Assembly: GCA_945874455.1 (NCBI GenBank)
Contig: CAMCHO010000001.1
Coordinates: 28,918 to 92,917 of the forward strand
Source of the DNA: Opitutus sp. GAS368
Lineage (GTDB): Bacteria; Verrucomicrobiota; Verrucomicrobiia; Opitutales; Opitutaceae
Direction of reading: 5' to 3'
Length of the DNA stretch: 64,000 nucleotides
The notes under the pieces: model-generated
Seen by the model: the letters and a program-made list of their open reading frames with translations, nothing else
Databases searched by the model: none
Told to the model about the DNA's origin: nothing
Position numbers and translations under genes: made by a program
Part shown: in pieces, positions 30,315 to 34,368 of the stretch
How the letters are laid out: the number at the start of each line of letters is the position of its first letter
How positions within the stretch are numbered: the stretch's first letter is position 1

Positions 30315-31736
30315 ATGAAAACGAAAGTCGCCATCGTCGGCGGAGGTCTAGCCGGGCTCTCCTCCGCCGCTCATCTTTTATTAGCCGCCGCCGAGCAGTA
30401 CGAGATTCACGTCTTTGAATCCGCGCCCATGCTCGGCGGCCAATGCGCCTCGTGGCTCGATGCCAAGGGCCGGCCCGTTGAAACCGGCATCCACCTCGAT
30501 TTCCCGTGGTATCATAACAAAGACGCCCTCTTCGCGGCGATCGGCCACCCGTTGCCCCTCAAAGAAACCGATGGCAACTACTACGTGTGCAACGGCCAGA
30601 CCGGCCAGATCGACACGCTCCTCGCCGGTAAATCCGTCTTAAAAACCCTGCGCGGCCTCGCGACTTTTCCCGGCCTCACGCCCACCGAACGACTCCAGCT
30701 CATCGGCTTTATTTTTCGCCTCATGCGCATGGATGACCGCATGGCGGACTCTTTTGATCACCTCTCCGTCACGCAGTTTCTACTCGATCAAAAACTCAGC
30801 GCCGGCATCCGGCAGCAACTCGCGCTCGAAGCAGTCACGATCCAAGGGTTGCGTGCCGAAGAGGCCAGCGCGGCCTCGTTCATCAAATTCCTGCGCACGA
30901 TGTACGGCAGTATGGGTATTTTTGATACCACGTTTTTCGGCGCTCCGCTTAGCGTCGCCCTCGTCGATCCCCTGGCAGACTTCATCACCCGCCACGGCGG
31001 GCACATCCACCTCGCGACGGCAATCAAGAGTGTCACACCCGCCACCGCTGGCCCCGCCCGGATCAGGACCACTGCCGGCGTCACTCACGAAGCCGATCAC
31101 GTCATCTTTGCCGTGCCCGGCTATGCCGTGCCCGCGCTCCTGCCCGCCGAGCTGCGTACGACCTCGCCCTTTGCTGCGCTCGCCGACCTCAAAGAGACGC
31201 CCATCATCACGATCACCCTGTGGTACGCGACCAAGGTGTTCACCGATGGAAACGTTTACATCTCGCCACGCGACCGCGAACACGGGCCCATCTTCGATGC
31301 GGTGGCCGACAAAGCCTTTCATTGGAAAGATTGGCCCAAGCTCAAAGCAGAGGGTAGCATCATCCAAGTCCTGATCGACGCCGCCGATGATGTGCTGCAC
31401 CTAAGCGATGCCGAGATCTTGGCCAAAGTATCTCAAGACCTCGCGCGCTTCTTCCCTCATTGCCGCGGCCAAGCCTCCATCGATGCCACCGTGCTGCGCT
31501 TAAAAAACACCTACTGCGGCACGCGCGTCGGCTATTGGTCCAAAGTACCGCGCAAACACCAGACCGGCCTCCCCGGCCTCTGGCTGGCGGGCGACTACAC
31601 CGCTGGCGTGTATCACTACGGCATGGAGTCAGCGATTATATCCGGCAAGGCCGTGGCGAATGAACTCCTCCGCGAAATTAATCACGCAGGCTTTGAGATT
31701 CTACGCCCCCGTTATCTCCCCTTCGTCCGCGTTTAA
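30315..31736 (+). CDS. FAD-dependent oxidoreductase (phytoene desaturase / HpnE-like)
   Basis: Dinucleotide-binding motif 'KVAIVGGGLAGLSSAAHLLLAAAEQYEIHVFESAPMLGGQCASW'; C-terminal 'GLWLAGDYTAGVYHYGMESAIISGKAVANELL'. Confidence 0.87.
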   Translation: MKTKVAIVGGGLAGLSSAAHLLLAAAEQYEIHVFESAPMLGGQCASWLDAKGRPVETGIHLDFPWYHNKDALFAAIGHPLPLKETDGNYYVCNGQTGQIDTLLAGKSVLKTLRGLATFPGLTPTERLQLIGFIFRLMRMDDRMADSFDHLSVTQFLLDQKLSAGIRQQLALEAVTIQGLRAEEASAASFIKFLRTMYGSMGIFDTTFFGAPLSVALVDPLADFITRHGGHIHLATAIKSVTPATAGPARIRTTAGVTHEADHVIFAVPGYAVPALLPAELRTTSPFAALADLKETPIITITLWYATKVFTDGNVYISPRDREHGPIFDAVADKAFHWKDWPKLKAEGSIIQVLIDAADDVLHLSDAEILAKVSQDLARFFPHCRGQASIDATVLRLKNTYCGTRVGYWSKVPRKHQTGLPGLWLAGDYTAGVYHYGMESAIISGKAVANELLREINHAGFEILRPRYLPFVRV

Positions 31737-32319: not shown

Positions 32320-34368
32320 ATGACTACTCTCCCACCGACAGAAAACCGGATTTTCGGCGGGAGAGGTTCCGCAAACACGCCTACGATATCGCTGGCTTTT
32401 GCGAAAACCGACGAAGAGCGCGAACGCATTTTTCGTTTTCGCTATCAGATCTATGTCACCGAAATGGGCAAGCAGCCCAAGGACGCCGACCACCACGCGC
32501 AAACACTCCGCGATGAGCTGGACAACGCCGAGACCGACCTGCTCTACGCCACGAGCGAAGGAGAGATTGTCGGCACGCTAAGGCGCAACACGCTAGACAT
32601 CCTGCAGCTGCCCGCATCCTGGCGAGACCGCTACCGCTTGGACGCGTTTGCGGACTATCCCCCGCAGGCCCTCAGTTACACCTCGCGCGCCATGGTGGCC
32701 GCGGAGTGGCGCGGCTCGACACTTTTTTCAAAGCTGCTGTCGCAGATGTATCTCCGCGGCCAGGAAAAGGGCGTCCGTTTCGACTTCTGTAACTGCGCGC
32801 CCTCGCTGATCGAGCTCTACGAGCAACTGGGCTATCGCCGCTACGCCGATGCGTTTGTCGAGCACGACGTCGGCTACCGCGTGCCACTCGTCTGGGTCGT
32901 GGGAGACCTCGAACACCTGCGCGCCGTGCGGTCGCCGTTCCTGCGAAACGCGATCAAGTTCCCTGACGACCCGGACGCCCGCGCACGATTTACGACGAGC
33001 TTCGCGACACACGCGAGCCGCGTCAATCGGCGCATTGTGGACGCGGATCTGTTCTGGGAAATCCTGGCCGAGAAACTACATCGCGAACCCCGGCACGCCA
33101 TCCCCCTGCTCGACGGCATGACAGAGGAAGAGGCGCAGCGCTTCCTGCACAGCGGCACCATCCTCCAGTGCAAACAGGGCGAATCGATCCTGCGGCGCGG
33201 CGATGTGGGCGACGAACTGTTTGTCGTGCTCGAAGGATGGCTCGAGGCGCAGCGTACCGTGGGCCCGCTCGCCGCCTCAATCGCGCTGTTCGGCCCCGGC
33301 CAGGTATTCGGCGAACTCGCCTTTCTCAACCGTCGGGCCCGCACCGCCGATGTGATCGCTCGCACCGACGCGAGCCTGCTCGTGATCACGCAGACATTCC
33401 TGCGCAAGTCATTGCTCCAGTCGCCGGACATCACGGCCCGCTTTCTGCTCAACCTCTCACTGGTGCTGTGCGATCGGCTGGAAATCAGCACCACTCAATG
33501 GGTGGAACGTCTGCAGAACGAAGACCTTGAGTCCACCCCGCCGCAACCCGCGCCGACCACGCCAGGCACGGCCGCGGGGTCCTACGCGTTTGGTGAGTTT
33601 CGGGAGAATGCCGCAGAGCTCACACGCCTGAAACAGCAGGGCCGCGTCGCCGAACAGTTGGAACTCGACGGCATGCGGCGCGCGGGTCTGCAGCCCGGCA
33701 TGCGTGTGCTGGATCTGGCCTGCGGCCCCGGCGTGGTGACGATGCAACTGGCACGCCTGGCGCATCCCGGCCTAGTGACCGGCGTCGATCTGAGCGAAGA
33801 TCTGCTCAGTGAAGCCCGAAAACTGGCGCGCGAGGAAGGCGCGGTGAACGTCGAGTACGCGTGCGCCAACGTCTACGAACTGACGCTGCCGGATCACACG
33901 TACGACTTCGTCTACGCCCGCCTGCTCTTCCAACATCTCGAGTTCCCGGAGCGTGCGCTCGCGCAGGTATGCCGCGTCCTCAAACCGGGCGGTATTCTCT
34001 GCGTACTCGACATCGACGACGGCTGGCTCACGCTCGCACCAGAACCGAAAAGTTTCGGCCCGTTTACCCGAGCGGCAGCCGAAGGCCAACAGCAGCACGG
34101 CGGAGACCGTTTCGTCGGCCGCAAACTATCGGCCTTGCTCACGAAGGCCGGACTGGAGCAGGTCGCGGTTCACATCAGCTCTCTGACCAGCCACGACATT
34201 GGGTTGAAGAACTTCCTCGACATCACCACCGGTTTCAAACGCGAGCAGATTGCCGCGGCTCCTAGCGTGGTCAGCGACCAACTGAAAGACATCTACGGGA
34301 TTCTCGAGGTGCCGCACGCGTGGGGCGCCGTGGGCGTATTCTCCGCAACCGGCCGTACACCCGTGTAG
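32320..34368 (+). CDS. Tri-domain fusion: GNAT/FeeM-like N-acyltransferase + cyclic-nucleotide-binding domain + class I SAM methyltransferase
   Basis: 'ISLAFAKTDEERERIFRFRYQIYVTEMGKQ...AMVAAEWRGSTLFSKLL'; 'CKQGESILRRGDVGDELFVVLEGWLEAQRT...FGPGQVFGELAFLNRRARTADVIARTDASLLVI'; 'GMRVLDLACGPGVVTMQLARLAHPGLVTGVDLSEDLL...VCRVLKPGGILCVLD'. One uninterrupted 682-aa frame. Confidence 0.88.
   Translation: MTTLPPTENRIFGGRGSANTPTISLAFAKTDEERERIFRFRYQIYVTEMGKQPKDADHHAQTLRDELDNAETDLLYATSEGEIVGTLRRNTLDILQLPASWRDRYRLDAFADYPPQALSYTSRAMVAAEWRGSTLFSKLLSQMYLRGQEKGVRFDFCNCAPSLIELYEQLGYRRYADAFVEHDVGYRVPLVWVVGDLEHLRAVRSPFLRNAIKFPDDPDARARFTTSFATHASRVNRRIVDADLFWEILAEKLHREPRHAIPLLDGMTEEEAQRFLHSGTILQCKQGESILRRGDVGDELFVVLEGWLEAQRTVGPLAASIALFGPGQVFGELAFLNRRARTADVIARTDASLLVITQTFLRKSLLQSPDITARFLLNLSLVLCDRLEISTTQWVERLQNEDLESTPPQPAPTTPGTAAGSYAFGEFRENAAELTRLKQQGRVAEQLELDGMRRAGLQPGMRVLDLACGPGVVTMQLARLAHPGLVTGVDLSEDLLSEARKLAREEGAVNVEYACANVYELTLPDHTYDFVYARLLFQHLEFPERALAQVCRVLKPGGILCVLDIDDGWLTLAPEPKSFGPFTRAAAEGQQQHGGDRFVGRKLSALLTKAGLEQVAVHISSLTSHDIGLKNFLDITTGFKREQIAAAPSVVSDQLKDIYGILEVPHAWGAVGVFSATGRTPV

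Follow-up and report, generated by a model that had tools for sequence, protein, structure and literature searches.

OxzA, TyzA and TrzA have been shown to be N-acyl amino acid synthases (PMC12856293, PMC10404671). In the acyl-oxazolone pathways OxzAB, TyzACB and TrzAS, a FeeM-fold enzyme makes the N-acyl amino acid and a partner, a ThiF-nitroreductase, modifies it; no cyclic nucleotide-binding (CNB) domain is mentioned for OxzA, TyzA or TrzA in these reports (PMC10404671, PMC12856293). Acyl transfer under cAMP control is known from the type III cAMP-GNATs MsPat and MtPat, in which the CNB domain comes first, the GNAT fold acts on protein lysines and a methyltransferase is absent (PMC8556138). 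The autoinducer synthases LuxI, BjaI and TofI use SAM as acceptor, form lactone products and carry neither a CNB domain nor a methyltransferase. N-acyl amino acid methyl esters (NAMEs) are produced by Roseovarius. In structure NAMEs resemble AHL signals, and their synthase genes are reported not to have been found (PMC11580390).

Here we describe a protein from a freshwater Opitutus, encoded in the 64,000-nucleotide stretch of DNA that was analysed (the window), which differs from each of these systems. Its N-terminal domain shares its fold and Pfam family with FeeM and N-acyl amino acid synthases (PF21926; 2G0B), but while no such fusions have been reported for FeeM, the Opitutus chain continues with a CNB domain and a methyltransferase, the latter taking the place of the ThiF-nitroreductase partner of the acyl-oxazolone pathways. 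Singly, FeeM-type enzymes, CNB domains and methyltransferases are all familiar. In the literature searched, we found no paper on an N-acyltransferase fused to a CNB domain and a methyltransferase, and no description of nucleotide-gated N-acyl amino acid synthesis. The sequence-only reading of this DNA had known of no described system with this domain order, which agrees with our search, although the FeeM-CNB module itself is not unique to the Opitutus genome.

Domain architecture and conservation of the fusion protein

The fusion gene (32320..34368, + strand) is one intact frame from ATG to stop, encoding 682 aa plus the stop codon. Its product carries, in order, a FeeM domain (residues 37-186), a CNB domain (residues 283-363) and a class I SAM methyltransferase domain (residues 463-561), all above the curated Pfam cut-offs. 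This is the architecture that the sequence-only reading had proposed, and the motifs it quoted, including VLDLACGPG of the methyltransferase, are present in the translation. Full-length orthologues (682 aa, 97-99% identity) are found in two further Opitutus-type genomes, the gene being present in three of the nine genomes of the genus, which are close relatives of one another; the near-identical loci L092 and L093 are from Opitutus/Opitutae metagenome bins. The dN/dS ratio of the whole gene is 0.11-0.19 in orthologue comparisons and mostly 0.04-0.13 for the individual domains, with a single FeeM comparison at 0.25, whereas the N-terminal tail and the second linker are nearly without constraint. 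Since the orthologues are 97-99% identical over 682 aa and dN/dS is 0.11-0.19, the frame is not due to chance, and the fusion is real, rare and under purifying selection in three close genomes. In the searches made here, the FeeM-CNB-methyltransferase order in one chain came up only in close relatives of the window genome. The full-length model is of low pLDDT (66.5) and yields no domain packing.

The N-terminal domain (32428..32877, + strand) reaches the gathering score of the FeeM family PF21926 (31.0 bits vs a cut-off of 27); as this is barely over the cut-off, its substrate could be a different one. A profile built from 11 FeeM-CNB N-terminal domains matched the autoinducer synthases BjaI (E 1.1e-6), RpaI, TofI and MesI in the PDB, and the fold of residues 1-227 as modelled by AF2 (pLDDT 78) matches TofI, MesI, BjaI, FeeM (2g0b) and LasI, with AHL synthases on top and FeeM 2g0b at a TM score of 0.77 by target length. 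Residues R41, D68, R88 and R131 are invariant across the FeeM-CNB set, and the R-D-R pattern aligns with residues common to AHL synthases in the profile alignment. Together, the profile and fold matches and this pattern place residues 37-186, as judged from sequence and model, in the FeeM/AHL-synthase branch of GNATs, with a predicted substrate. Despite its likeness to LuxI, BjaI and TofI in profile and fold, the Opitutus domain is part of a chain that, unlike these enzymes, includes a CNB domain and a methyltransferase.

The CNB domain (33166..33408, + strand) scores 59.4 bits against PF00027 (gathering cut-off 27.5) and matches PKA, PKG and CRP in both sequence and fold. Its phosphate-binding cassette, F330-G-E332...R341-T-A, occupies residues 330-343 (FGELAFLNRRARTA), in which G331, E332 and R341 are kept and are invariant in eight homologues, bearing out the CRP-type domain with a phosphate-binding cassette that had been read from the sequence. 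The spacing from Glu332 to Arg341 is the same as in PKA. The Thr that follows Arg341 is like that of cGMP-dependent kinase sites, which suggests that cGMP is as possible a ligand as cAMP.

The methyltransferase domain (33565..34365, + strand; residues 416-682) has its Pfam core at residues 463-561, assigned to Methyltransf_11/25, and scores 83 bits against Methyltransf_11 over residues 464-561 (cut-off 21.2). It has an ordinary class I fold with SAM-binding motif I; the closest solved structure, which its fold matches, is 3mgg, of a protein whose function is not known. In Sinorhizobium, a gene for a distantly similar methyltransferase overlaps a SpoIIE phosphatase gene (L091:4638-8173).

Around the fusion gene, the neighbours scanned encode an amine oxidase, a sulfatase and AIM24, and a ThiF and nitroreductase partner adjoining the acyltransferase was not among them. 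A single promoter-like site ends beside the fusion ATG, and Rfam gave no match between positions 28 and 38 kb in the window. The FAD amine-oxidase-like gene (30315..31733, + strand) lies upstream, separated by 584 nt, and we do not claim an operon across this gap. It is found in the same three of nine genus genomes as the fusion, but because these are closely related the co-occurrence is weak evidence, and a link between the two genes is uncertain; in one genome (G008) the amine-oxidase-like gene is split between two frames.

Distribution and gene context of FeeM-CNB proteins

Two short peptide patterns, scanned against 84,980 species, identified FeeM-CNB proteins in Opitutus, Bacteroidota, a Myxococcota-type bin, Holophagae, Thalassospira, Alteromonadaceae and Puniceicoccaceae; as these patterns are narrow more such proteins are expected. 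The module is rare outside Opitutus, where it is spread over Bacteroidota, Acidobacteriota, Myxococcota, Pseudomonadota and a further verrucomicrobial family. By profile search it turned up in 2 of 199 Acidobacteriota, 3 of 346 Bacteroidota (the starting genome included) and 1 of 297 genomes of the phylum of L095, namely the L095 genome itself; the long-linker type was found in 1 of 388 Verrucomicrobiota, the window genome. Among the matches listed in plasmid searches there were CNB-only or methyltransferase-only proteins and no FeeM-CNB protein. Long CNB-matching proteins of other Opitutales were set aside as unrelated, being MMPL/RND-type transporters of ~930 aa with a C-terminal CNB domain (L016, L018, L020), and L098 was rejected as a second paralogue since it covers the sequence flanking the same locus upstream, on a different contig.

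Several variant architectures were also seen. In L099 (6001-7197), L104 and L136 the FeeM-CNB protein has a C-terminal extension, which in L099 weakly resembles a Crp helix-turn-helix below the cut-off, and these proteins are possible synthase-regulator fusions; L136 has two FeeM-CNB genes in tandem. Several Opitutaceae genomes, some of them from the genus of the window, encode a FeeM domain joined to a class V aminotransferase-like domain (L064:316-1956, L070:298-1971, L076), and a GNAT/FeeM-like domain is fused to a class I/II aminotransferase in L044 (1414-3171) and L050.

The gene context of the homologues links the module with the same methyltransferase subfamily outside Opitutus. In Bacteroidota (L094, L096 and L097, near-identical and counted as one), a separate methyltransferase gene, whose product is 36% identical to residues 421-678 of the Opitutus protein, lies a few bases upstream of the FeeM-CNB gene. 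In the Holophagae locus L110, a methyltransferase gene is divergent from a gene for a 731-aa FeeM-CNB-cytochrome P450 fusion (L110:6025-8217), and its product is 44% identical to the Opitutus domain, the best match seen. Across 95 related genomes, methyltransferase matches other than the orthologues reached E 3e-29 at best, so that a methyltransferase of 44% identity next to FeeM-CNB in a different phylum is unlikely to be a coincidence. The methyltransferases linked to FeeM-CNB cluster together in a tree with moderate support (86/87). The FeeM-CNB proteins form two well separated clades (100/100), one with the window protein and the Bacteroidota pair and the other with L110 and L135; as the window and Bacteroidota proteins fall in a different clade from L110, the link to the methyltransferase is present in both parts of the tree. 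The majority of the FeeM-CNB genes fetched lack such a methyltransferase alongside, none of this subfamily being a neighbour in L151, L152, L099, L103 or L136, and methylation is therefore not obligatory for the module.

Other partners are found as well. In L135 (2904-6471 for the two genes), from the same Holophagae genome as L110, the FeeM-CNB gene ends 34 nt before a ThiF-nitroreductase fusion gene whose product scores 570.9 bits against the NCBIfam 'Rv1355c family' model (cut-off 476). Rv1355c is TrzS, the partner of the proven N-acyl amino acid synthase TrzA (PMC12856293). By sequence L135 is an acyl-oxazolone-type operon, as the window locus is not, and its acyltransferase bears a CNB domain; the TrzS-type neighbour offers, by analogy, a functional anchor for N-acyl amino acid synthesis by FeeM-CNB proteins. 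In L104 and L046 the FeeM-CNB gene is followed by an LCM-type methyltransferase of a different family. An NRPS is encoded directly downstream in L134 and a PKS-NRPS ~2.7 kb downstream in L133, a haem-oxygenase-like redox gene overlaps the FeeM-CNB gene in L142, and class III cyclase genes lie on either side of it in L095.

Proposed function and alternatives

From the domain identities and gene linkage described above, we infer the catalytic and binding steps and propose, with confidence evenly balanced, that the protein is soluble and joins an N-acyl amino acid synthase responsive to cNMP to a product-modifying methyltransferase. The FeeM-type domain would acylate the amino group of an amino acid, or of a comparable small amine, with acyl-ACP or acyl-CoA as donor, as its family, its fold and the operon partners of its homologues suggest. 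The CNB domain would bind cAMP or cGMP and turn the acyltransferase on or off, given that the contact residues are intact and that the Opitutus genome encodes two class III cyclases, and the methyltransferase would methylate the acylated product, as the fusion and linkage indicate. The free carboxylate would be the most economical methyl acceptor, with N- or side-chain O-methylation as alternatives, and the tailored product may be a NAME, the simplest product of acylation followed by carboxyl methylation. In FeeM-CNB systems generally, an adjoining or fused ThiF-oxidase, P450 or methyltransferase would tailor the N-acyl amino acid and the CNB domain would tie output to cAMP or cGMP. That one polypeptide makes a methylated N-acyl amino acid, such as a NAME-type signal, and is itself controlled directly and allosterically by cAMP or cGMP is a tentative reading, which we hold to be possible but rather doubtful; if it is true, an intracellular second messenger would determine how much of an intercellular lipid signal is put out, with no transcriptional step. 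Second-messenger-gated acylation and methylation, as first suggested from the sequence, has gained comparative support from the unfused operon, the divergent gene pair, the TrzS-type partner, the cyclase neighbours and the intact cNMP contacts, while its chemistry and gating are steps that we still infer.

The alternative that survives best is that acylation and methylation concern different small molecules and are joined for common control only, the CNB domain governing both halves or chiefly the methyltransferase. The position of the CNB domain between the two catalytic domains is consistent with this, as are the many FeeM-CNB genes without a methyltransferase, which make the pairing optional; however, the linkage of one methyltransferase subfamily to FeeM-CNB in three phyla fits a shared pathway, and we consider separate substrates unlikely. 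Ornithine lipids occur in methylated form, and the protein might instead be an aminolipid enzyme, with an OlsB-like lyso-lipid N-acyltransferase and methylation of the head group. Acetyltransf_5 (PF13444, the OlsB family) does pass its cut-off over residues 40-139 (29.8 vs 22.4 bits), with weak matches to OlsB and exosortase acyltransferase models, but the OlsB equivalog model itself scores 24 bits against a cut-off of 350 and no O-acyltransferase of the OlsA type is among the neighbours scanned, which makes this quite improbable.

cNMP binding is absent from several domains with the CNB fold, and the CNB domain could likewise be a structural or dimerisation module that has lost its nucleotide response; the invariance of Glu332 and Arg341 at PKA-like spacing, together with a CNB dN/dS of 0.04-0.07, renders this very unlikely. 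Least likely, a cAMP-regulated protein-lysine acetyltransferase of the kind of mycobacterial Pat, extended by a methyltransferase, would account for the pairing of CNB and GNAT and for the match of the Pat model to the CNB part, but that model spans the CNB domain only (25.8 vs a cut-off of 460), the domain order is reversed from the N-terminal CNB of Pat, and the GNAT falls in the FeeM/AHL-synthase branch rather than the Pat type.

The Opitutus fusion and its two-gene counterpart in Bacteroidota are thereby concrete candidates for a NAME-type synthase. Since FeeM-CNB genes lie beside NRPS, PKS-NRPS, P450 and TrzS-type genes, the module may be a general route to second-messenger control of acyl amino acid products.
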